Assembly: GCA_021324775.1 (NCBI GenBank)
Contig: JAJPIM010000005.1
Coordinates: 1-64,000 of the forward strand
Direction: 5' to 3'
Source: Gemmatimonadota bacterium
GTDB lineage: Bacteria; Gemmatimonadota; Gemmatimonadetes; Gemmatimonadales; Gemmatimonadaceae
DNA: 64,000 bases
The stretch's first letter is position 1. Each line of letters starts with the position of its first letter. The position numbers were made by a program, and so were the translations under genes. This document shows, in pieces, positions 6,673 to 23,842 of this stretch. Below the pieces are notes generated by a model, which saw only the letters and a list, made by a program, of their open reading frames with translations, was not told the origin of the DNA and searched no databases.

Positions 6673-7917
6673 ATGCGGACGCTGCGGCGCGGCTTTTTCC
6701 GTGCGGCGGGGTTCATTGTCGTCGCCGGCGGCACCGCGGCGGCCTGCTTGGGTATGGTCTGCGCGGTTGCGCGGGCCCAGACCCCTGTCCCGGCCCAGTC
6801 AACTGCCAAGAGCGACACAGGAAGCGCCCGGCCGCCGGAGGGGGATCCGTACCCGGCGAGCCTCGATTTCGGGACCGGACTGATCGACATCCCGGTGGCC
6901 TGGGTTTCCCCCAACTCGTCTGACTTCTGGCTGTCGTACGGGGCCAAGCGGATTCCGTCGCCCAAGGTAGCCAACGGGGGCGCCTTTTCCTATTGGAACG
7001 GCAACATGGCCCTGGACACCCATTGGCTCAACCGTTTCGACGCCGGTGTCTCAGTTTACAGCAACAACCCGGAGTGGGGACTTTTTGGCCAGTTGGTGCT
7101 TTTGCACGACGGCGATCTGGCCTCGTTTCTTCCGGCCGTCGCGGTCGGCGCCCGCAACGTCGGCCCGGACACGCACGAGGAGCGGTTTCTGATCGGGACC
7201 GACGTCACGGTCGACAGCCTGGGCCATCAGCACGAGATCACCCCGTTCTACTTCAAGGGGTTTCACACGTCCCCGACCCTGTACGCCGTCGCGACCAAGA
7301 CTCTCACGTTCCACTCGGCCGTGCTCTCGAGCATCGGCCTGACGATCGGCGGCGGGGACGGCCTGTTCAGCCAGGACGGGAATCTCGGTGCCGAGTACAA
7401 CGCGTCGGGCACGGTCGTGAAGGGGATGTTCTTCGGGGCGAGAACCGTGTCGCACCCGACGACCAACACCACGATCTCGCTGGTCGGCGAGAACAACGGA
7501 TTCGACTACAACGCCGGCGTGATCGGCGGGTGGCGCGGGCTGTCGCTCGGTGTCTACGCCTCGGAGCTGGAGGACGGGACTGCGCGCAGTCCATCGAGCC
7601 TTCTGATCTACAACTACCGCAAGTGGAACGTCTCGTTCAGCTACAGCGGCAATTTCCGCGATGTGGCGCACGGCCACTGGCTGCGCACGCAGATCTCGGA
7701 GCTGGAGCGCGAGCAGCAGATCCTGCGTGCCGACATCGTGCAGCGCGAGGAGACGATCAGTCGCTTGCAGGTCCGGCTCGGCAAGCTGCAGGGCGGCGAC
7801 CTCGGTGATGTGACCAAGGAGCGCCAGCGGATCGAGCAGGAGCTGGAGGCGGAGCGCCAGGCGATCGAGCGCGCCAACGAGCGGCTGAAGCAGTTGCAAG
7901 GGGAGAAGCCCCAGTGA
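6673..7917 (+). CDS. Outer-membrane barrel with C-terminal coiled coil (paralog A of the envelope cluster)
   Basis: A 414-residue protein, first of a nine-gene cluster. The signal peptide (RRGFFRAAGFIVVAGG to ARAQ) is followed by a strand-rich region opening with LDFGTGLIDIPVAWVSP. Repeated Gly/aromatic strands such as FLPAVAVGARNVGP and LTIGGGDGLFS suggest a porin-like barrel. Residues ~335-414 switch to a highly charged coiled coil (ISELEREQQILRADIVQREE to RANERLKQLQGEK). The next gene encodes a clear paralog with the same plan (LNWGSGLIDIPAAWVSP, FLPSVAFGIRNVGP), so the pair arose by tandem duplication. The motif GLIDIPxA recalls YjbH/GltA-type barrels, but that is only a resemblance. Likely role: outer-membrane end of a trans-envelope complex, the coiled coil reaching into the periplasm. 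Confidence 0.75.
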   Translation: MRTLRRGFFRAAGFIVVAGGTAAACLGMVCAVARAQTPVPAQSTAKSDTGSARPPEGDPYPASLDFGTGLIDIPVAWVSPNSSDFWLSYGAKRIPSPKVANGGAFSYWNGNMALDTHWLNRFDAGVSVYSNNPEWGLFGQLVLLHDGDLASFLPAVAVGARNVGPDTHEERFLIGTDVTVDSLGHQHEITPFYFKGFHTSPTLYAVATKTLTFHSAVLSSIGLTIGGGDGLFSQDGNLGAEYNASGTVVKGMFFGARTVSHPTTNTTISLVGENNGFDYNAGVIGGWRGLSLGVYASELEDGTARSPSSLLIYNYRKWNVSFSYSGNFRDVAHGHWLRTQISELEREQQILRADIVQREETISRLQVRLGKLQGGDLGDVTKERQRIEQELEAERQAIERANERLKQLQGEKPQ

Positions 7918-9245
7918 TGCCCCGCGTGAAGCGCGCGACCTTCCGCGCGTGTGCCGGGTGGGGGCTGGCCCTCGTCGCGTGCAGCGTGGTGCTGCTCGCG
8001 CGGCCGTTGCACGCGCAGGCCGAGTTCGCGCAGACTCTGAACTGGGGTTCGGGGCTGATCGACATTCCGGCGGCGTGGGTATCGCCGCTCAGCGGCGACT
8101 TCTCGCTCAACTGGTCCGCGAAGACCCTGCAAACCAGCCCGGCGATCCCGCAGTACAGCAACTCGCTCACCGGCAAGGGCGCGCTCCAAGTCGCGCTGTT
8201 CGGACGCGCGGAGCTGGGGATGTCGGTGCTGTCCAGTGACTTCGAGCACGGGTTCTACGGCCAGGCGCTCATCCTCAACCAGGACGACTTCCGCGGGAAG
8301 GCGGGCGCGTTCCTGCCGTCGGTCGCCTTCGGCATCCGCAACGTCGGCCCGTATAGCCACATCGACCGGTTCGGGCTGGGATACGAAGAGACCCTTCCGG
8401 CAAACGGCGGCAGTGCGCCGCAGATCGTGCCGGACTCGCTGCACCGGGATTTCAAGACCGGGAACACGATCTATGGCGTGGCGACCAAGAGTTTTTCGCT
8501 GGAGGACCTGCGGGCGTCGTGGCCCGACATCGGGATGAGCCTGACGGTCGGCTACGGCAACGGGCTCTTCTCCAACCACGGGTCGATTCCGTTGCGGGAC
8601 TACGCCGCGGATGCGACCGGGGGCCTCTTCTATGGTATCAAGACGGATTTTCGTCCGTCTACTAATACCATGATCTCCCTTATGGCAGAGAACAACGCGT
8701 GGGATTTCAACGTCGGGACGGCGGTGAGCTGGCGCGGGCTGCGAGCGGGCGTGTCCGTCACGGAACTGGCGGCCGGCAGCGCACACCTCACGGCGGGCGA
8801 TCCCGCATCGGCTCTGTACCGCTATCCAAAGGTCAACTTCACCCTCGGGTGGGCGAGCAACATCTTCGCGTTGCTCAAGGGCAACGTCCTCGAGAACCGT
8901 GCGGCACAACTGCGCAAACAGCGGGACGTGCTGCTCGCCGACATCGCGCAGCGGCAGACGCACATCGCGCAGTTGCAGGGCGAGATCCGGCGGTACGAGG
9001 CGCAGAACCTCCTCGAGCTCGAGGAGCGGCGCGCGCAGGCCCAGACGGAACTCCAGACGGAGACCGAAGCGTTGCACCGGCTGGAGGAGCGGCTCAAGCG
9101 GATCGAAATCGAGACGCAGGGTGAGCCCGAGACGCCGCCTCCAGCGCAGTCACAGCCACCGGCCAACCCGCCTGCGAACCCGCCTGCGAATCCGCAGCCA
9201 TCGGCGCCGGGTTCACCACCACCCTCTCCAGGGCACACACTGTGA
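7917..9245 (+). CDS. Outer-membrane barrel with coiled coil and Pro-rich tail (paralog B)
   Basis: A 442-residue paralog of the preceding protein. Its ATG overlaps the upstream stop by one base (tgatg), implying translational coupling. Signal peptide ends LHAQA; the barrel region shares LNWGSGLIDIPAAWVSP, FLPSVAFGIRNVGP and MISLMAENNAWDFNVG with paralog A (NTTISLVGENNGFDYNAG there). A coiled coil follows at ~325-400 (RKQRDVLLADIAQRQTHIAQ to LEERLKRIEIETQ), and the last ~40 residues are a Pro repeat (PPANPPANPPANPQP) that could thread peptidoglycan or bind a partner. A GTG one codon upstream is possible but unlikely. Same inferred role as paralog A. Confidence 0.75.
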   Translation: MPRVKRATFRACAGWGLALVACSVVLLARPLHAQAEFAQTLNWGSGLIDIPAAWVSPLSGDFSLNWSAKTLQTSPAIPQYSNSLTGKGALQVALFGRAELGMSVLSSDFEHGFYGQALILNQDDFRGKAGAFLPSVAFGIRNVGPYSHIDRFGLGYEETLPANGGSAPQIVPDSLHRDFKTGNTIYGVATKSFSLEDLRASWPDIGMSLTVGYGNGLFSNHGSIPLRDYAADATGGLFYGIKTDFRPSTNTMISLMAENNAWDFNVGTAVSWRGLRAGVSVTELAAGSAHLTAGDPASALYRYPKVNFTLGWASNIFALLKGNVLENRAAQLRKQRDVLLADIAQRQTHIAQLQGEIRRYEAQNLLELEERRAQAQTELQTETEALHRLEERLKRIEIETQGEPETPPPAQSQPPANPPANPPANPQPSAPGSPPPSPGHTL

Positions 9246-9985
9246 TCAGGCCGCGCAGAGTTGGTCTGCTGCTGGCCGCGTTGGCCGCCGCAACGGCGTT
9301 GGCGCCCGCGCTCAGCGCTCAGGACACGACCCGCCACACTCCGGACACCACGTCGTCCACGCTGCCATCGGAACGGGACTACTCGGCCAAGCGCCAGGCG
9401 GAGATGAGCGACATCAAGACCGCCCAGCGTAAACTCGGGGAACTGCGATCCGAGCGGATCGCGCTCGAATCGCGGGTCGACAGCGCCGCCGTCAAGGCGA
9501 CCGCGAAGCGGGCGAGCGAGCTGCTCCTGAGCCACGAGACGACGGCGCTGCGGTCGCTCGACTCGATGCTGACCACGTCGCAGGAGGTCCTGCTGGCGCA
9601 ACGTGACCGGTTCCTGTCGCTCGGCGAGGCGGTGCGCCGCCGCGCGGACGCGGAACTCGTGGTCGTCGTGCGTGTGGACTCCGCACCCGGGATGCAGCAC
9701 ATCGAGGGGCTGACCGTGCAGGTCGACAGCGCGCCAGCGGCGGATCGCCGGTACAGTGATGCGGCGAACGAGGCTTTGGGCGCGGGTGCGGTCGACGAAG
9801 TCTACCACTCGAACGTTCTGCCGTCGACGCACTCCGTGACGCTCACGATCTCGCTCAACGGATCGTCGCAGACCAAGGCGGCCAGCGTGGATGTCCCAAC
9901 CGGCGCAGTCACGTACGTCCAGTTCACGGTGCACGCCGGCCAACTCCTGCTGAGCACGTGGATCAACCGAAGCGGTCCCCAGTAA
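9242..9985 (+). CDS. Secreted coiled-coil protein of the envelope cluster
   Basis: A 247-residue protein of no recognised family, GTG start overlapping the upstream stop by four bases. A Sec signal (GLLLAALAAATALAPALSAQ) is followed by a Thr/Ser-rich linker, a helical segment (~45-120, heptad-like: SDIKTAQRKLGELRSERIAL, then SLDSMLTTSQEVLLAQRDRF) and a C-terminal beta domain of ~120 residues (ELVVVVRVDSAP, VTLTISLNGSSQTKAASVDV, YVQFTVHAGQLLLSTWIN) that resembles a small Ig-like or PEGA-like sandwich. It should be periplasmic. Its place between the barrels and the TPR protein suggests an adaptor between outer membrane and periplasmic scaffold; that is inference. Confidence 0.72.
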   Translation: MIRPRRVGLLLAALAAATALAPALSAQDTTRHTPDTTSSTLPSERDYSAKRQAEMSDIKTAQRKLGELRSERIALESRVDSAAVKATAKRASELLLSHETTALRSLDSMLTTSQEVLLAQRDRFLSLGEAVRRRADAELVVVVRVDSAPGMQHIEGLTVQVDSAPAADRRYSDAANEALGAGAVDEVYHSNVLPSTHSVTLTISLNGSSQTKAASVDVPTGAVTYVQFTVHAGQLLLSTWINRSGPQ

Positions 9986-10011
9986 CGCCGTCGGCCAATG
10001 GCGGGTACCGC

Positions 10012-13000
10012 GTGACACGGCGCAACGCACGCCGGGTGATGCGGCGGATGCGTGTGCCTGGCTCGGTCCTTTCGGGCCGCTGGTCGCCGTTCGCCGCGAT
10101 GGTCGCCGGGGTGGTCCTCGCCTCGGCCCTGGGCGTCGCCCATCCGGCGGCGGCGCAAGGCACGCCGCCGCCCGCTCCCCCGAGCGCCGCTGCTCCTATC
10201 GCCGTGCGGCCGGATACTGCGCTCGTCCCGGAACTCGATGCGGCGCGCGCGGCGGACGCCGAGATCCGCGTCGCACTGTTCGAGCTGATGAACAATCGTC
10301 CGGCGGCGGCCCTCGACCGGCTGCGGGTGATCACCGCTCCGCCGGGAAGCGTGGGTGGCACGGGCACGTGGCGTGGAGACCAGGACCGCCGGTTCCTCAT
10401 GGCCGAGAGTTTCTACCGGCTGGGGATGGACGACAGCATGCGAGTGGCGGCCCAGGCGGTGCTCGCGGGCCCGGGCGCGGCGCGATTCGGCGCGGTGCTG
10501 CGCACGCAACTGCTGTTCGCCGCATATCGCAGCGGGGATCTGGCGCAGGCGTACACGATCGCGAAGGCCGCGAGCCGGGATGACCGGTCACCGCTGTCGG
10601 CGCTGCTCGCGGGGCTGGTCGCCTATCAGAACGGGGATACGGCGCTCGCGCGCACGTCGTTCGCGTCGGCGCAGCAACTCGCGACTTCGGGCGGCCCGTA
10701 CGCCGACTACGCGCGATACATGAGCGCACTGACGGCCGCCCGCAGCGACACCGCGCATCCTACAACGGCGCTGCACGCGTTCGAAGCGGCGGTCACGACG
10801 GCGAATGGCGAAGCCCTGAACCAACTGACCGTCGCGGGCGCCCAGAGCGCCGTGGAAGCCGGCCAGTACGATCGCGCGGCGGCGTCGGCGGCGGCGGTCG
10901 AAGCCTCGAGCGGAAGCGATGCCGAGGCGCGGGCCACCCGGGCCTGGGCGCTGACGCGCGGCGGGCATCCGGATCAGGCCGCGACGGTGTTCAACGACCT
11001 CGCCGACCGCTATCCGCAACTGCCCGGGCGCGAAGACAATCGTTTGATGGCGGCACAGTCCGCGCTCGAGCAGAACAAACCCACGGAATCCCAGGGCGAG
11101 TTTCTCTCCGCGGTCGATTCCGCGAGCACGGAAGCGCAGCGCATCGCGCAGTGGAGCGCCACCCCGAATGCGGCGGCGCGCGCCCTCGTGAGCGCACGCG
11201 CGGCCGACGTCCTGCTGCTGCCGGACGTGGTGCTCGGCAAGACCCTGGCGTTCCCGGACAGCGCGGGCGGCGGGACCGACGCATTGCGCGCCGTCGTGTC
11301 CGATGCGCCGACCGCGGCACCGCCGGCGTTTGCGCCGCCTTCGCTGGTCACGATCAACAGCCTCACGTCGCGCGTGGATTCGGCCGCGGCCGGCGCGCCG
11401 GGCGGTGGTCTCAGCCTGGTGGACCGCGACGTGCTCCGGCGGGCGGCATTCACACGCGAGCCGGCCGGGCCCGCGGGCGCTGACGCACGGGCCGACCTGA
11501 TCCGCGACGTCAACGAGCTGCACAACGCCGACATCTCGGTCGTCCTGGCCAACGAAGACATCCGGGCGCAGCGTGGCAACGTGGCCCTGCAACTCCTGCT
11601 GCTGCGCCGCGCGCGCCAGCAAATCGAGCTGGCGGGTGACAGCCTCGGGCCGATGTTCACGCGGATGTCGGCGGCGGAGGATTCGCTGGCCCGCATCACG
11701 CAGCACGTGGATGTCGCGGGAGTGCTGCTGCACCGGCTCTTCGCGCCGCAATTCTCCGACATGCGCAAGCTCTCGTCCGACAACATCCGCCAGATCGACA
11801 GCGTGCGGCGGTCGATGGGCGCGTATGCGGCGCCGGGCGATCTGGCGGTGCTCGATCGCGAAGCGGCGACCGCGGCCGACTATGGCAGGATAGCGGACAT
11901 GATCGAGCGGGGTCTCAATCAGGTGATCGCGAACCATCCAGCCTTTGCGCTCCGGGATTCGATCCGGCTGCGCGGCGAGCGTACGCGCCAGTTGATCGTG
12001 CAGACCCAGCGCGCGGTGACGACGGGCGAGGCGGCAGTCGACGAACAGATGGCACGGGTCTCCGAGGGCGGATCGTCCACGCGCGCCTCGCTGCGGAGCA
12101 CGCTGAACGCGGCCGCGGCGGCGCAGGAACAGGCGGTTGGCGTCCTCACGGCCGCCGTGGAGCACGATCTCACCGTCCGCGCGGGCGTACTCGCGGCGGA
12201 CGCGAGGCGGGACCAGGAAGCGGCGGAGTTCGGGGCGGCGGGTGCGTCATTCTTCCGCCAGCTCGCGAGCGCGGACGCGGCGTCGGGCGGCACGGCAGCC
12301 GGTGATCCGGCGCCGAACGCGGATTCCGCGGTTGCGCAGCTCGAGCGCGTCATCCAGCGATACCCCAACAGCCCGGCCCGCGCGGGTGCGCTCTACGAGC
12401 TGGGCGAACTGCTCGTGCGCCGCGCGGACGAGCGCTATGCGGCGACGCAGCGTGTGGGCACCGGGTCGGACACGACTCGTGCGGCCCGCGCCGACGCAGG
12501 ACCGAACCACCCCGACTACACGACAGCGATCGCGCGCTACGAGGAGCTGATCAAGCAGTATCCGGCGTTCCCGCAGATCGACGGCGCCGAGTACACCCTC
12601 GGTACGTTGTACGCCTCGGGCGAGCGGTACGCGGATGCGGCGGCGATCTTCGAGAAAGTCAGCGGCATCGAGTCGTCAACGATGCGAGCGGAGGCCATGT
12701 TCCGGCTGGGCGACGCCCGGTTCGAGCTGGCGAGTGCGGCGCGCGGCGAGCAGCGCCTGGCGGCGTTCGGCAAGGCGGCCGGGGCATACGAGCAGGCGGC
12801 GGGCATCGCGCCGGTCACGGGCGACATCTATTTCCTGTCGCTCTACAAACTCGGCTGGTCGTACTACAACCAGGGCACGCAGCAGAGCCAGGACGGCTAC
12901 CGGAAGGCCGTCGAGGTGTTCGGGCGGCTGGTCGACGCCTACGACAAACTGCCGGCGGACCGGCAGGCGAGACTCGGCCTGCGCGATGAGACTCTGGACT

Positions 13001-15261
13001 ACATGGCGGTCTCGTTCACGCAGGTCGGTGGCGCCGAGGCGGCGAACCGCTTCTTCGCGACCCGGAGCGACACGGCGTACAAGATCCAGGTGTTGCGCCG
13101 GGTGGCGTCGCGGCTCCGCGACCAGGGTGACTTCGGGCGCGCGGTGCAGGCGTATCAGGAGCTGCTGGTCGAGGCGCCGAACGACTCGTCGGCGCTCGGC
13201 GTGCAGCAAGAAGTCATCGACATCTACCAGAACCGGACGCTGGAGCCGGAGAAGGCGCAGGCGGCGCGTCTGGCGCTGGTCGACAAGTTCGCGCCCGGAT
13301 TCGCGTGGTCGGCCGCCAATCTTCCGTTGGAGAAGCAGGCGGCATCGGCCCGCGAGGATGCACTCCGCCAGAGCGCGCAATACGAGCTGGCCAAGGCGCA
13401 GGGTTCGGGAACGCGCGTCGTCGTCGCGGCCCGGACACGCCGCGCGCCAGGCACACCCGCGCCGAGCATCGGCACTCCGTCGGCGGCGCAGCGGCCCCAT
13501 TATGCGGAGGCCGCGCGGCTGTACGGGAAGTACATGCAGGACTACGGCGGCGCGGACAGTGCACGCGCGGTCGATACCTACTATGCGGAAGCGCTCTTCG
13601 GCGCGGGGGACTACGCGCAGGCGGGAGCCGAATACGTCCGCTCGGCGTACGGCTACCCCGGGGACACGAGCAAAGTGGCGGCGGTGTCCGAGCAGCAGTC
13701 GGCGCAGAACGCGATCGTGGCATACGACTCGGCGCTCAACGCCAACAAGAACGACCGCACGGTCCAGGATTCGCTGTTCTCGGCCGTCAATCAATTCGCC
13801 GACCACTACCCGCACACCGAGATCGCCAAGCGCGCGCTGATCGAGGAAGGCCGGCGTGCGTCGGAGGCGGGGCGTTGGGACGTGATGGTGTCGGCGTTCC
13901 GGCAATACTCGGCGCAGTGGCCGAGCGACCCCTACACGCCGACCGCAGCGAAGCTGGTGGGAGACGCGTTGTACAAGCAGGGCAAGTACGGCGACGCGCA
14001 GGCGCAGTGGGACACCGCGTATACGATCGCGGAGCGGGCGGGCCGGCACACGCTCGCAGATTCGCTCAAGCGCGTGCAGGCGTCCGCGGCATCGATCTAT
14101 GCCGACTCGCTGGTCAAGGCGGGCCAGTATCAGCGGGCCGCGGAGGAAGTGTACGTCGCGTACGCGGACGAGAATCCGACCAGCGTGAAGGCGGCGGACG
14201 CGTTACGGAATGCGATCGAGACCTACATGCTGGCGGACAGTGTGGCGCGGCGGAAGGGCAACGACAGCGCATCGAAGGATGCGCGGACCCACGCCGCGGA
14301 TCTGTCGAACCGGCTGATCACGCAATTCCCGCAATACCAGTACCGGTTGCAGTATCAGACACTGCACGCGGACCTGCTGGCCGGACTTGGCCGCGGGGAC
14401 GAGTCCATCGATGCGCTTCGCAAGCTGATCGCCGACAACCCCACGTGGGCCGGGCGAGCGGACGCCGAGATCCGGCTCGCGACGCGGCTGGACTCACTCG
14501 GGAAGAAAAAAGAGGCGGCGGCGGAGTACGAGCAGTTCTCGTCGGATTATCCGGGCGACAAGCGGGCGACGGACGCCGAGTACAACTCGGCGGTGACCTA
14601 TCTGGAGTCCGGCGACACGCTGACGGCCGCGAAGACCTACGCGACATTTGCCCGCCGGTATCCGGCGGACCCGCGTGCGGCGCAGGCGCGGTCGTACCGG
14701 ATCGCGCTGTTGCGGCAGGCCGGGGACTCGGCCGCGGCGAACGCCGATCTCGCGGTCCTGTGTACCGCGAACGCGCCTGCCGACCTCAAGGCCGAGTGTG
14801 CGGCGCGTGCGGGCGAGGCGGCGTTCTCCGCCGGTGTGGCGCAATTCCTGAAGTATCGGCCGGTGAAGCTCGTGATCGCTTCGCGCGGCCAACTGACCGC
14901 GGCGGGTGTGAAGCGGGCGTCGGCCAACAAGCAGCAGTTGTTGACGGCGCTGACGAAAGACTTCACGCGTGCGATCGAGGCCGGGGACCCGCAGTACCTC
15001 GCAGCCGCGACGTACTACATCGGTGTCGCGCAGTGGGAGTACGGCAACTTCCTGAAGGACGTGCAGTTGCCGGCGTCGCTGAGCGATGCGGAGCGGCTGG
15101 CGGCGGCCGACGGGGCCGCGAAGCAGGCCGAGGCATACTACTCGCAGGCGCAGAAGACGTGGCAGGCCTTGGTGGACAAGGCAGCGCAGGAGAAGATCGT
15201 GAACAAGTGGGTGGACATGGCCAAGGACGGCGTACAGGGCAAGGTGCCTGATGACCTCTAA
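10012..15261 (+). CDS. Giant periplasmic TPR-repeat protein of the envelope cluster
   Basis: About 1750 residues, the largest protein in the window. A basic start and hydrophobic core (PFAAMVAGVVLASALGVAHP, ending AAAQG) form a signal peptide. The rest is almost entirely helical TPR-like repeats, many of the BamD/YbgF type: AVAQLERVIQRYPNSPARAG with ALYELGELLVRRADERY, ARYEELIKQYPAFPQIDGAE, AEYEQFSSDYPGDKRATDAE, ARRYPADPRAAQARSYRIAL. Such proteins scaffold envelope complexes. The start is uncertain: GTG 10012 or ATG 10039 gives a normal signal, whereas the longest frame (GTG 9958) overlaps the previous gene by 28 bases. In the myxobacterial Glt/Nfs systems large TPR proteins occupy this role; the parallel is by architecture, not by measured homology. 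Confidence 0.82.
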   Translation: MTRRNARRVMRRMRVPGSVLSGRWSPFAAMVAGVVLASALGVAHPAAAQGTPPPAPPSAAAPIAVRPDTALVPELDAARAADAEIRVALFELMNNRPAAALDRLRVITAPPGSVGGTGTWRGDQDRRFLMAESFYRLGMDDSMRVAAQAVLAGPGAARFGAVLRTQLLFAAYRSGDLAQAYTIAKAASRDDRSPLSALLAGLVAYQNGDTALARTSFASAQQLATSGGPYADYARYMSALTAARSDTAHPTTALHAFEAAVTTANGEALNQLTVAGAQSAVEAGQYDRAAASAAAVEASSGSDAEARATRAWALTRGGHPDQAATVFNDLADRYPQLPGREDNRLMAAQSALEQNKPTESQGEFLSAVDSASTEAQRIAQWSATPNAAARALVSARAADVLLLPDVVLGKTLAFPDSAGGGTDALRAVVSDAPTAAPPAFAPPSLVTINSLTSRVDSAAAGAPGGGLSLVDRDVLRRAAFTREPAGPAGADARADLIRDVNELHNADISVVLANEDIRAQRGNVALQLLLLRRARQQIELAGDSLGPMFTRMSAAEDSLARITQHVDVAGVLLHRLFAPQFSDMRKLSSDNIRQIDSVRRSMGAYAAPGDLAVLDREAATAADYGRIADMIERGLNQVIANHPAFALRDSIRLRGERTRQLIVQTQRAVTTGEAAVDEQMARVSEGGSSTRASLRSTLNAAAAAQEQAVGVLTAAVEHDLTVRAGVLAADARRDQEAAEFGAAGASFFRQLASADAASGGTAAGDPAPNADSAVAQLERVIQRYPNSPARAGALYELGELLVRRADERYAATQRVGTGSDTTRAARADAGPNHPDYTTAIARYEELIKQYPAFPQIDGAEYTLGTLYASGERYADAAAIFEKVSGIESSTMRAEAMFRLGDARFELASAARGEQRLAAFGKAAGAYEQAAGIAPVTGDIYFLSLYKLGWSYYNQGTQQSQDGYRKAVEVFGRLVDAYDKLPADRQARLGLRDETLDYMAVSFTQVGGAEAANRFFATRSDTAYKIQVLRRVASRLRDQGDFGRAVQAYQELLVEAPNDSSALGVQQEVIDIYQNRTLEPEKAQAARLALVDKFAPGFAWSAANLPLEKQAASAREDALRQSAQYELAKAQGSGTRVVVAARTRRAPGTPAPSIGTPSAAQRPHYAEAARLYGKYMQDYGGADSARAVDTYYAEALFGAGDYAQAGAEYVRSAYGYPGDTSKVAAVSEQQSAQNAIVAYDSALNANKNDRTVQDSLFSAVNQFADHYPHTEIAKRALIEEGRRASEAGRWDVMVSAFRQYSAQWPSDPYTPTAAKLVGDALYKQGKYGDAQAQWDTAYTIAERAGRHTLADSLKRVQASAASIYADSLVKAGQYQRAAEEVYVAYADENPTSVKAADALRNAIETYMLADSVARRKGNDSASKDARTHAADLSNRLITQFPQYQYRLQYQTLHADLLAGLGRGDESIDALRKLIADNPTWAGRADAEIRLATRLDSLGKKKEAAAEYEQFSSDYPGDKRATDAEYNSAVTYLESGDTLTAAKTYATFARRYPADPRAAQARSYRIALLRQAGDSAAANADLAVLCTANAPADLKAECAARAGEAAFSAGVAQFLKYRPVKLVIASRGQLTAAGVKRASANKQQLLTALTKDFTRAIEAGDPQYLAAATYYIGVAQWEYGNFLKDVQLPASLSDAERLAAADGAAKQAEAYYSQAQKTWQALVDKAAQEKIVNKWVDMAKDGVQGKVPDDL

Positions 15262-15760
15262 GAGGCAAGTGCGGCTCGCGTGGGCCGTCCGCCCCGGGCA
15301 TTGGTGCGTCGTGGCCGCGTTGTTGGTGCTGGCGGCACTGGCCAGTCCGGCCGCCGCTCAGCAGCAAGGGGCCACGCAAGGGGCAGCGCAGGGTGCGAAG
15401 CCCGTGCGTGGCGCGCAGCAGATCGAGATCCGCGGCCAGGTGCCGACGCCGCAGGTCGTGACCGTGCGCCCGCGTGAGACCCCGGTATTCAGCCGGGAAG
15501 TGCTGACACCGTCGTATTTCGACGAGCACTTCTGGCAGGCGCTGCTCACGCCGTACGAGCTGGCGCCAAACCTGTCGTTCGGTGCAGGCGCGACGCCCAC
15601 CAGCATCGTGCCGGCGCCGTTGCCGGGCGACAGCACATTTCGTCTTCCGCCAGCAGCCGACAGCGCGCATCTCGCGCCGCCGGTCCCCGCTCCACCCGCC
15701 GGTCCGCCGGCGCCTACCGCGACGCGGGGCACGCCCCCGGACGCTCCAAGGGAGAAGTAA
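15251..15760 (+). CDS. Small secreted Pro/Ala-rich protein of the envelope cluster
   Basis: A 169-residue protein overlapping the TPR gene by 11 bases and the ExbB gene by one base (taatg), so it belongs to the same transcript. Seen: N-terminal signal (VVAALLVLAALASPAAAQ), a compact conserved-looking core (IEIRGQVPTPQVVTVRPRET, then FSREVLTPSYFDEHFW), and a disordered Pro/Ala tail. No family recognised. Its tight overlap on both sides argues for a dedicated role next to the motor, perhaps coupling TPR scaffold and ExbBD. Confidence 0.72.
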   Translation: MTSKRQVRLAWAVRPGHWCVVAALLVLAALASPAAAQQQGATQGAAQGAKPVRGAQQIEIRGQVPTPQVVTVRPRETPVFSREVLTPSYFDEHFWQALLTPYELAPNLSFGAGATPTSIVPAPLPGDSTFRLPPAADSAHLAPPVPAPPAGPPAPTATRGTPPDAPREK

Positions 15761-16410
15761 TGCGATCGTTGCTCGAATCGTTGCTCGAGACGTTCCGGAA
15801 TGGCGGCCCGGTCATGTACGTCATCCTCGCGGTCGCGATCGCGGGGCTCGCCATATTCCTGGAGCGGTTCTACGTGATCGTGATCCGGTCCACGATCAAC
15901 GGACCCGCGTTCATCGAGCGCATCATGCAGCTCGTCCGGGCGGAGAGGCTGGAAGACGCGATACGGCTGTGCGCCCAGTCGCATTCTCCGCTGCCCGACA
16001 TGGGACTCCTCATCCTGCGGAGCAAGACCCGCGACGAGGGTGAGTTGCAGAACGTGGCGGATGCCGCGTCGCTCTCGGTGATCCCGCGGTTGTCGCGGCG
16101 GCTCCAGTATCTGCCGATGCTGGCGAACGTCGCCACGCTGATCGGACTCTTCGGGACGATCTACGGCTTGAAGGGCGCATTCGCATCAGTGGCGGCGGCA
16201 TCGGCGGCGCAGCGGTCGGAGAAACTGGCTGCGGGTATCGCGATCGCGCTCAATGCCACGGGATTCGGACTGCTCACGGCGATTCCGCTGACGATCGGCC
16301 ACTCGTATCTGTCCGCGCAGGCCGAGCAGATCATCGAGCAGGTGGACGAGTTCTCGGTTCGGCTCATCAACGCGCTGGTCGAGCGCCCCGAAGCCAGGAT
16401 CTCACGCTAG
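15760..16410 (+). CDS. ExbB/TolQ/MotA-family proton channel protein
   Basis: A 216-residue inner-membrane protein. Three membrane segments in the family layout: residues ~16-40 (VMYVILAVAIAGLAIFLERF), a cytoplasmic loop of ~75 residues, ~118-140 (LPMLANVATLIGLFGTIYGL), and ~152-180 (AAGIAIALNATGFGLLTAIP). The motifs LIGLFGTIYGL and LNATGFGLLTAIPL match the conserved ExbB/TolQ pore segments. With two ExbD partners directly downstream it should form a proton-motive-force-driven stator. One TolQ-like plus two TolR-like proteins is the composition of the myxobacterial AglR-AglQ-AglS motor; TonB and Tol motors have the same fold, so the family alone does not decide the job. Confidence 0.92.
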   Translation: MRSLLESLLETFRNGGPVMYVILAVAIAGLAIFLERFYVIVIRSTINGPAFIERIMQLVRAERLEDAIRLCAQSHSPLPDMGLLILRSKTRDEGELQNVADAASLSVIPRLSRRLQYLPMLANVATLIGLFGTIYGLKGAFASVAAASAAQRSEKLAAGIAIALNATGFGLLTAIPLTIGHSYLSAQAEQIIEQVDEFSVRLINALVERPEARISR

Positions 16411-16507
16411 CCGCGCCCGCGTCCCGATCCGGTTGCTGCCGCCCATGAGCGCGCACCAGCCTCGCCGGCCAGTCCTGGCTCCTTTCGCGCAGCGGTAGGG
16501 CGACCTC

Positions 16508-17050
16508 GTGGCTACTTCGCGATTTCACCGAGCGAAAGTCCGGCGCGCGGAGCGCGCGTCGTCCACCATGGGGCATGGCGGCATCAACCTGGTGCCGCTG
16601 ATCGACGTGCTGACCTCCATCGTGTTCTTCAGCCTCGCGAGCTATCAGGGGTTGCTGGCGGAGCTGACATCGTTCGATCTGGCGCTGCCGCCGCTGGTGG
16701 TGACAGCGGAGCAGATGCCGGCCGGGCAGAAGGACACCAACCTCAATCTGCTGCTCGCGGTGCGGATCGAGGCCGACAAGATGCTGGTGGAGCACTCGGC
16801 GAACGGCGGGTTCCGCCGTGAGATCCCGGGGCTCACCGGCGCGTCGCTCGATACGCTGCAGGCGTTGATGATCGGCATCCACCAGGAGTACCCGCAGAAC
16901 AACGACGTCCTGGTGATTCCCTCGGACGAGGTGCAGTACGACGACGTGGTGCACGTGCTCGAGCGGCTCAAACTGGCGCAATTCCCGAACGTCGCGCTGG
17001 GGACACGCGCGCGCGCGACGACCGTGTCGTCGTCGGCGGGCCGGACCTAG
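16508..17050 (+). CDS. ExbD/TolR-family protein 1
   Basis: A 180-residue protein with GTG start, 97 bases after ExbB. One membrane segment (INLVPLIDVLTSIVFFSLAS, residues ~26-45) carries the conserved proton-carrying Asp at residue 33. A periplasmic domain of ~120 residues ends with the family-typical strand-helix region (DVLVIPSDEVQYDDVVHVLE). ExbD/TolR proteins plug the ExbB pentamer and transmit force to peptidoglycan or to a TonB-like partner. The basic cytosolic N-terminus is longer than usual. Confidence 0.9.
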   Translation: MATSRFHRAKVRRAERASSTMGHGGINLVPLIDVLTSIVFFSLASYQGLLAELTSFDLALPPLVVTAEQMPAGQKDTNLNLLLAVRIEADKMLVEHSANGGFRREIPGLTGASLDTLQALMIGIHQEYPQNNDVLVIPSDEVQYDDVVHVLERLKLAQFPNVALGTRARATTVSSSAGRT

Positions 17051-17052
17051 CC

Positions 17053-17592
17053 ATGGCGAGACAGATCAGCCGGGCGCGCATGGCGCGCGAGACTCGCCGG
17101 GGGGCGCAGTTCGCCAAGTTCAAACTGGCGGAGCTGAACCTCGTGCCGCTCGTGGATACGCTGGTGTCGATCGTGTTCTTCGCGCTCGTGACGGCGACCG
17201 TCGGGGAGCTGGCGCCGGTGGTAGCCGGCGTGAACCTGCCCGAGGCGAGGGTTGGGACGAACGCGTTGCAGCAACTGACGCTTGGCATCGGGCGGCAGGT
17301 GACGCTCGCGAACCAGCCGCTGATGAACACCGTGGATGCCGCGCAGTCGCAGTCGAACGTGCCCGGGCAGCCGTTGATCATCCCGCCGCTCTACTCCGCG
17401 CTCAAAGGCAAGGCGGACTCGATCCGGACGGTGACGCAGGCGACACCGGACCAGCCCGTGGATGTGCCGCTGGCGATCCAGGGCGACAGGACGATGCGGT
17501 ACGATCTGCTGTCGCGGGTGATGCAGACTGCGCGGCTCGCGGGATTCAAGAACATCTCCCTGCAGGTCCATCGGGTGTCTGATGGCGGGTGA
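17053..17592 (+). CDS. ExbD/TolR-family protein 2
   Basis: A 179-residue second ExbD, starting two bases after the first one ends. Membrane segment LNLVPLVDTLVSIVFFALVT with the conserved Asp at residue 35. The periplasmic part carries a long insertion (VPGQPLIIPPLYSALKGKAD, residues ~105-125) missing in ExbD 1, and ends in the usual helix-strand (LLSRVMQTARLAGFKNISLQ). The two ExbDs differ throughout, which suggests a hetero-oligomeric stator as in AglQ/AglS and not a recent duplication. Confidence 0.9.
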   Translation: MARQISRARMARETRRGAQFAKFKLAELNLVPLVDTLVSIVFFALVTATVGELAPVVAGVNLPEARVGTNALQQLTLGIGRQVTLANQPLMNTVDAAQSQSNVPGQPLIIPPLYSALKGKADSIRTVTQATPDQPVDVPLAIQGDRTMRYDLLSRVMQTARLAGFKNISLQVHRVSDGG

Positions 17593-18550
17593 AGGTTCGA
17601 CAGGCGCATCGCGGTATGCTCGTCGTGCGCGCCCGCGTGACGAAGCGAGCTTCACGCGCAACCTCCGGTTCGAGCTGGCGGACGAGGAGGGTCGTGCGCT
17701 ACTCGGGTCGTGGATGCTGTCCGCGTCCTTCGGGTTGCTCTGGATCCTGCTGGTGATATTCGGGCCCAAGACCGACATCAGTCATTTGTTGCCGCCGGAG
17801 GAGCGTCCGATCAACGTGACGTTCGAGCCGCCGCCACCGCCCGACGTGCCGGTGAAGCCGGAGGCGGCGCAGCCGGTTCCGGCGGCGCCCAAGACCGCCG
17901 CGCCAGGGAAGCCGAAGCCATCGGCCGAGGAGATCGCGGCGAAGCGGGCAGCGGCGGCGAGCGCGGCCTTCGGCGCAGCGCCGGCGGCGAACGGTCCCGT
18001 GGGGGATGTCTCCAACGTCCTCCGGGGAGTGGATGTGGCGTCGGGTGCGCCGAAGCCTGGCGCGGCCGTGGGGAAGGCCGTGCTGGCCTATGGGCAGGGC
18101 GGGCAGGGCGTGCGGACGCCGGGCCGGGCCGACATGGGCGGCGGGGCGGGCGTCGGCAATCTGGGTGGCGTCGTCGGTGGGGCCGGGATTGGCCACGAGG
18201 GCGTGACGGTGGCGGCGCCGAGGGCGATCGATGTGCCGGGGTTGGGCGGTCCGACGCGGGACATGGGGGAGCTGGGCACGGCGGTGCGTAGCCATGATTC
18301 GCAGCTCCGGTTCTGCTACGATGAGTACGGGTTGAAGGTGAACCCGGGGCTGGCGGGGAGTGTGACGCTGGCGTTGACGATGACGGGTGGCGGGACCGTG
18401 ACGAAGGCGCAGGTGACCCGGCGGACGTGGTCGGGTCCGGGCGCGAGCGAAGCCGAGTCGTGCATCCTGGAGAAGGCGCAGGAGTGGCATTTTCCGGCGT
18501 CGCCGGCGGGCGGGGGCACGTTCGAGTTTTCGTTCAACTTCACGAGGTAG
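17582..18550 (+). CDS. TonB-like transducer with AgmX/PglI-type C-terminal domain
   Basis: A 322-residue protein overlapping ExbD 2 by 11 bases. Seen: ~39 cytosolic residues, one membrane helix (40-61, LLGSWMLSASFGLLWILLVI), a Pro-rich stretch (FEPPPPPDVPVKPEAAQP), a Gly-rich linker, and an 89-residue C-terminal domain (234-322) with LRFCYDEYGLKVNPGLAGSV and the ending EWHFP-...-FEFSFNF. This C-domain matches what I know of the AgmX/PglI C-terminal family, named after myxobacterial gliding-motility proteins. Cys245 and Cys294 probably form a disulfide. Role by family: carries force from the ExbBD stator across the periplasm. A near copy of the domain occurs in the lipoprotein at 23189-23842. 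Confidence 0.86.
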   Translation: MAGEGSTGASRYARRARPRDEASFTRNLRFELADEEGRALLGSWMLSASFGLLWILLVIFGPKTDISHLLPPEERPINVTFEPPPPPDVPVKPEAAQPVPAAPKTAAPGKPKPSAEEIAAKRAAAASAAFGAAPAANGPVGDVSNVLRGVDVASGAPKPGAAVGKAVLAYGQGGQGVRTPGRADMGGGAGVGNLGGVVGGAGIGHEGVTVAAPRAIDVPGLGGPTRDMGELGTAVRSHDSQLRFCYDEYGLKVNPGLAGSVTLALTMTGGGTVTKAQVTRRTWSGPGASEAESCILEKAQEWHFPASPAGGGTFEFSFNFTR

Positions 18551-23188: not shown

Positions 23189-23842
23189 ATGGGCGTGAGA
23201 TCGACAGTGGGGCCGACTACTGATATTGCTGCTGATATTGCAGCTGATATTGCTGCTGATATTGCTGCTCGTGCCGTTGGTGATGGCGGCCGCGGGGCGG
23301 GACGAGTCACGAGCCGTTTCGCGGTGCGGTGCGGAGTCCTGTCCGTCGCAATCGCGGCCGTCGCGGGGCTGGCCGCGTGTCATGGCGACAAGAAGGGATC
23401 GGCCGGCGACTCGGTCGCCGTGGCGACACCCGCGCCCGACACGACGCCGCAGGATCTCTCGAAAGTGCAGACCGCGCTCCCTCCGGCCGCGTCGGACACC
23501 TTCACGCCACCCAAGCCGGCGGCGGCTCAGCCGGACTATCCGCCGGCGCCGCCTGCTCTCATGGAGTCGGTGGAGCGTGAGCAGGCGTTCTCGAAGTTCT
23601 GCTACGAGGAGTTCGGCCAGAAGGCGGATCCCACGCTTCGCGGCGGAGTCGCGGTGGTGGTGACTGTGTCGGACAACGCCGTTCAGGACGCGAAAGTCGC
23701 CAACTCCCGGTGGTCGGCCAAGGCGGCCGGCGAGCAGGTCAACCAGTGCCTGAACGAGAAGGCGCGGCTCGCGTGGAAGCTGGGTGATTCGACCGTCAAG
23801 CCCGGGAAGTACGTGGTGCAACTGAGCTTCCGCGGGGAATAG
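23189..23842 (+). CDS. Lipoprotein with AgmX/PglI-type C-terminal domain
   Basis: A 217-residue protein. Residues 46-64 form a lipoprotein signal ending LAAC; the 45 residues before it are unusual and include DIAA repeated four times from a 12-base tandem repeat. An internal GTG at 23324 would give a short normal signal. After a Pro/Thr linker, the last 89 residues (129-217: FSKFCYEEFGQKADPTLRGG, WSAKAAGEQVNQCLNEKARL, YVVQLSF) align end to end with the C-domain of the TonB-like protein at 17582-18550. Both have Cys residues 49 apart (138/187 here, 245/294 there). Probably faces the periplasm from a membrane lipid anchor; function unknown, maybe a partner or decoy for the transducer. Confidence 0.75.
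   Translation: MGVRSTVGPTTDIAADIAADIAADIAARAVGDGGRGAGRVTSRFAVRCGVLSVAIAAVAGLAACHGDKKGSAGDSVAVATPAPDTTPQDLSKVQTALPPAASDTFTPPKPAAAQPDYPPAPPALMESVEREQAFSKFCYEEFGQKADPTLRGGVAVVVTVSDNAVQDAKVANSRWSAKAAGEQVNQCLNEKARLAWKLGDSTVKPGKYVVQLSFRGE
23221..23268. repeat. 12-base tandem repeat tgatattgctgc, four copies
   Basis: Four units of tgatattgctgc (one with a single change) inside the 5' end of the lipoprotein gene, reading Asp-Ile-Ala-Ala. Being a multiple of three, copy-number change would keep the frame. Confidence 0.9.

Follow-up and report, generated by a model that had tools for sequence, protein, structure and literature searches.

The plus strand of the window (the whole stretch of 64,000 nucleotides analysed here, from a soil-type Gemmatimonadota bacterium) carries a cluster of nine genes, A to I, at positions 6673-18550. 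Its content recalls the Agl-Glt gliding and Agl-Nfs spore-coat machines of Myxococcus, which raises the question of whether this resemblance reflects common descent, and what such a machine would do in this phylum. The first-pass annotation had described a plus-strand cluster with a paralogous pair of outer-membrane barrels, a periplasmic coiled-coil protein, a TPR protein of about 1750 residues, a small secreted protein, one ExbB/TolQ, two different ExbD/TolR and a single-pass TonB-like protein; all nine ORFs and domain assignments were confirmed. Its statement that most junctions overlap by 1-11 bases is correct for five of the eight (A/B and B/C 4 nt each, D/E 11, E/F 1, H/I 11), whereas C and D overlap by 28 nt, and gaps of 97 and 2 nt separate F/G and G/H, respectively.

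The genes most readily recognised are those of the motor. F (15760-16410) is a TolQ/AglR-type motor subunit with a MotA_ExbB domain (6.4e-22). G (16508-17050, with a GTG start at 16508) and H (17053-17592) are TolR proteins with ExbD domains (1.8e-8 and 2.3e-14); G, or TolR1, is of the AglQ/AglS type, and both proteins carry an Asp where the TM helix begins (Asp33 in G, Asp35 in H, the TolR2). Gene I (17582-18550) encodes a single-pass transducer whose C-terminal domain corresponds to the GltG C-terminus and matches the AgmX/PglI C-terminal model NF033768 with 59 bits (cut-off 40). Domain searches found no FHA domain in I, in line with the earlier remark that the FHA part is absent from the block, and no sequence relative of I was present among PDB entries. 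A Pfam search of A, B, C, E and I returned no credible family.

F is 34-39% identical to AglR and to the TolQ of the myxobacterial core clusters described below, versus 20-25% to the TolQ and ExbB of its own genome. In a tree of 36 rows, whose root position was assumed, F clusters together with its orthologues, AglR (which sits on a long branch) and the core TolQ, apart from canonical TolQ/ExbB, with 100/99 support. Reading of the ORFs also revealed a Tol-Pal cluster and a canonical TonB-ExbB-ExbD-ExbD cluster elsewhere in the genome; because both are separate, the block constitutes a third system of this genome. The Zorya defence system was considered and rejected: F alone matches ZorA, marginally (0.0099), and there was no other Zor match.

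Myxobacterial genomes were reached via the MglA locus, using as a single query an MglA sequence corrected against PDB entries and joined to the window TolQ. The GltG, Nfs and Agl loci were assigned by protein lengths, gene order and the GltG model, and compared with the published clusters (Luciano 2011, PMC3169522); the genomes are those of Myxococcus relatives rather than of the type strain. One cluster (L183/L191), in a MAG titled Bdellovibrio, encodes, in order, bdA, GltC, GltD, GltE, a 121-aa protein, TolQ, TolR, TolR and GltG, and a TolQ resembling its own was found in 182 of the 193 genomes of the myxobacterial group. The same layout, whole or in part, is present in ten further Myxococcota clusters (L192-L197, L199, L204, L205, L207), the order being bdA-GltC-GltD-GltE-bdS-Q-R-R-GltG. 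When the GltC and GltG of the Myxococcota clusters are compared with the corresponding NCBIfam models, they match, with scores below the model cut-offs. Four of these clusters (L193, L195, L205, L207) are immediately preceded by mglB-like and mglA genes, and the TolR1 of L197, L199, L204 and L205 has an Asn in place of the expected TM Asp. Some record titles look wrong (noted for L057, BNCN01000011.1, and L120): a genome titled Comamonas has myxobacterial glt/nfs/agl loci, and the MAG titled Bdellovibrio is grouped with the myxobacterial genomes.

Genes C to I are collinear with this core complex, and profile comparison argues for real homology, beyond analogy. With the core-cluster profiles, the best match is the positional counterpart for C, D1, D2, F, G, H and I, but not for E. 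The evidence is strongest for D2 with GltD (hhalign 100%), F with TolQ (100%), I with GltG (99.4%, also 99% in earlier profile sets, over the C-terminal part only), G with R1 (97.3%) and H with R2 (96.4%; H also matches R1, 94%). D (9958-15261), identified as a TPR protein by domain search, encodes a periplasmic protein of 1767 aa with a GltC-like N-terminal part of about 785 aa (D1), the rest (D2) being GltD-like. D2 matches GltD at 9.8e-58, versus 1e-6 to 1e-7 for other core TPR families (next best 2.8e-7). In comparisons with the myxobacterial Glt/Nfs loci, D2 likewise matches GltD/NfsD and I matches GltG/NfsG. The Agl-Glt/Nfs likeness noted earlier for the motor, transducer and TPR parts is thus borne out by the diagonal of profile matches and the TolQ tree.

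The likeness is more moderate for D1 and C. D1 has core GltC as its best match among TPR families (96%, 3.9e-9), a result of moderate strength between two TPR-containing proteins. C (9242-9985) encodes a secreted protein with a helix of about 90 residues and a beta domain, and would be the counterpart of bdA, the first gene of the Myxococcota core clusters (86%). In six-frame searches, the three top matches of the bdA HMM are C orthologues, and the C HMM picks bdA in return; a fold search with C gave weak matches only, among the matches listed. E (15251-15760) encodes a small secreted protein with a GltF/bdS-like motif, IEIRGQVPTPQVVTVRPR, and its assignment is the weakest. Hhalign against GltF/bdS gave about 5-10% (4.6% with the core profiles), and when the six-frame ORFs of the block loci were searched with an HMM of GltF and bdS, the window E was the top hit (6.4e-5). 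The match is not reciprocal, as the E HMM placed an antisense ORF first (0.016) and bdS second (0.13) in the core loci. No separate GltE gene was found between D and E at any block locus read.

The outer-membrane end of the block is another matter. A (6673-7917) encodes a protein of 414 aa with a signal peptide, a predicted barrel and a C-terminal periplasmic coiled coil, and B (7914-9245) a second barrel of 443 aa. That the two are paralogous, as first proposed, is clear (34% identity, hhalign 100%). In the model of A (mean pLDDT 75, pTM 0.66), about 12 strands span residues 84-327 and helices residues 328-408, and B aligns to A over the same region. Profile comparison did not support a relationship to GltA/GltB or NfsA/NfsB. 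The barrels compared were NfsA, NfsB and relatives read at two other loci rather than GltA and GltB themselves, and all hhalign probabilities for A and B stayed below 2%; the model of A is a barrel of 12 strands. The match of A to the GltH set with wider profiles (22% over 32 columns at 3% identity) was read as noise. A search of 193 Myxococcota genomes with the barrel profile retrieved two partial matches only, and the A/B family is essentially absent from these genomes. Because they have no Myxococcota counterpart, and one related genome (G241, locus L164) has the rest of the block without detectable barrels, A and B may be accessory. The barrels GltA and GltB stabilise each other and bind GltC (PMC4488436), and A and B could play a similar part toward D1. 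In another family of the class (f5), distant A/B relatives occur singly or in tandem outside block-like clusters (L050, L051 and other loci); as read from the alignment, an OmpA-like C-terminus replaces the coiled coil in L050 and L051.

Among the matches listed, the closest folds to A include KdgM (Z 17.2, rmsd 2.2, 159 residues) and FapF (Z 16.7). KdgM is an oligogalacturonate porin, and together with the ExbB/ExbD/TonB-like domains this might suggest a TonB-type import system, in which F to I would energise uptake via A and B. We consider this very improbable: the roughly 12 strands of the A model, in which no plug domain was seen, are unlike the 22 strands of TonB-dependent receptors, and the genome has its separate canonical ExbB-ExbD-ExbD-TonB set. 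Large TPR proteins are also not known as parts of TonB-type import systems, which counts against this reading.

A tenth candidate component, J, was overlooked in the first-pass annotation. J (23306-23842, plus strand, start codon inferred) lies about 4.8 kb downstream of the block and encodes a lipoprotein with the lipobox LAAC and an AgmX/PglI-like domain. This domain scores 19.7 bits against NF033768, below the model cut-off of 40, and aligns with I at 98% by hhalign. J adjoins gene I in four related loci (L041-L044) and lies near LemA in L036, L038, L164 and the window, whereas no J was found in the stretches retrieved for L165-L167. Its position and its domain suggest that it may be coupled to the machine. 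A second J-like lipoprotein is present near the block of G235 (L041:16889-17383; 31% identity, 7e-13).

The block is conserved in related genomes, where its absence had been set as grounds for refutation. G107 has the same A-I order, as do about 12 other genomes of the family in which contigs are partial or D is split, and the order is unchanged at every locus whose contig is long enough; such recurrence argues against a chance cluster. D is represented by two separate genes in L036, L038, L040 and L164, with a D1 of about 730-790 aa and a D2 of about 1000 aa. Ka/Ks, computed against a genome of the same genus for seven of the nine genes (A, B, D, F, G, H and I), lies at 0.04-0.155, so that these seven are under purifying selection. 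A Gemmatimonadetes MAG (PMAE01000051.1) has a TolQ 93% identical to F. In G241, C to I lie between a kdtA-like gene and LemA. In genus g20 (G143, G176, G254; L165-L167), only TolQ is kept at the block position, 41-53% identical to F; these orphan TolQ lack TolR and the other block genes, and their conserved pore motifs are altered (e.g., GLFGTIYGL to GVLGTVRGI).

Among 298 sampled Gemmatimonadota genomes, the block was found in the family of the window alone, where it occurs in about 15 of 103 members by a count of listings. Such patchiness is not expected of a housekeeping system, and bears on whether the block might be a second Tol-Pal-like envelope maintenance system, in which the motor would be tethered to the outer membrane as the cell grows or divides. 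Its TolQ/TolR/TonB-like domains, the YbgF-like TPRs in D, lipoprotein J and the OmpA-like ends of the distant A/B relatives would all suit such a role. We nevertheless find it quite unlikely, as the block contains neither TolB nor Pal, a separate Tol-Pal is present in the genome, and the motor groups with AglR and not with TolQ.

We favor, with a probability of about 0.72, the reading that this block represents, in the Gemmatimonadaceae, the core complex that gave rise to the Agl-Glt and Agl-Nfs machines. From its homologues we infer the connections of the machine, its proton drive and its outcome. F, G and H would form a proton-driven inner-membrane motor, with the Asp of G and H at the TM helix start. 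I would span the periplasm and pass force to a TPR scaffold, as proposed for GltG. This scaffold, made of D2 and D1 with C and E, would be coupled to barrels A and B, whose coiled-coil tails may reach into the periplasm, and J, probably located on the inner side of the outer membrane, would contribute a further AgmX-type domain.

The most likely outcome is PMF-driven movement or organization of outer-membrane and surface components, and we prefer a role in polysaccharide or envelope organization over cell gliding. A true gliding machine, in which the motor would propel the cell by pulling the barrels and an adhesin along its length, has in its favor the homology of the core to Agl-Glt, the two MglA homologues of the genome and the mglB-mglA genes beside core clusters in several Myxococcota. 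The earlier statement that MglA is missing applies to the block and not to the genome, as both homologues lie outside the block. Of the 298 Gemmatimonadota genomes, 233 have MglA, whether or not they carry the block; as MglA is near-universal in the order, its presence is no sign of gliding. GltA/B/H homologues are also absent from the block. The function of the core complex was left open when it was described, and the core was judged unlikely to drive motility alone (Luciano 2011, PMC3169522). On these grounds, PMF-driven organization or transport of surface components is the preferred reading, with gliding as a less likely rival.

As the core is shared with myxobacteria and the barrel pair differs, the motor core seems to be a module that can be reused. 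More tentatively, it may serve as a plug-in force module that has exchanged its outer-membrane end, so that in Gemmatimonadaceae an unrelated, coiled-coil-tailed barrel pair would move or export a surface polymer; if true, this would be a third specialized use beside gliding and spore-coat assembly. Under the favored reading, the ancestral core of the myxobacterial gliding machine would have a branch of its own in a different phylum, represented by this block and joined to a different outer-membrane module. We found no later answer in the literature to the question left in 2011 about the function of the core. The natural losses (the barrels in G241, all but TolQ in one genus) and candidate J offer a comparison that may indicate the parts of a minimal engine.

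Among known systems, KdgM porins and the FapF amyloid secretion barrel have the 12-strand fold in common with A, but identity is about 10%, A has a C-terminal coiled coil, and likeness of fold shows no function. The TolQ-TolR-TolR-vWA clusters of the PVC group (PMC12204202), compared by layout only, also combine TPR, TolQ, two unlike TolR and a transducer, which there is a vWA protein and here has an AgmX/PglI-type domain. Myxococcus Agl-Glt and Agl-Nfs share with the block the motor of one TolQ and two TolR, the GltG-type transducer and GltC/GltD-like TPR proteins, as well as a paralogous barrel pair at the outer membrane, although these barrels are not homologous by profile. GltH, GltI, GltJ and the FHA part of those machines are absent from the block, within which no GltI, GltJ, GltK or CglB was recognized, and mglA lies elsewhere in the genome. 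The block itself was not met in the titles and abstracts of the papers retrieved, and a literature search for Gemmatimonadota with TolQ/TolR returned nothing. To call it a distinct, undescribed system, as had been suggested, is too strong: bdA, GltC, GltD, a GltF-like protein, TolQ, TolR, TolR and the GltG C-terminus are collinear in the block and in the core complex of Myxococcota (Luciano 2011, PMC3169522). Relative to that ancestral complex, the Gemmatimonadota block lacks GltE, has D1 and D2 fused in the window, carries barrels A and B upstream, and has the extra lipoprotein J. What is new here is the phylum, the outer-membrane module and J, set on a core that had already been described.
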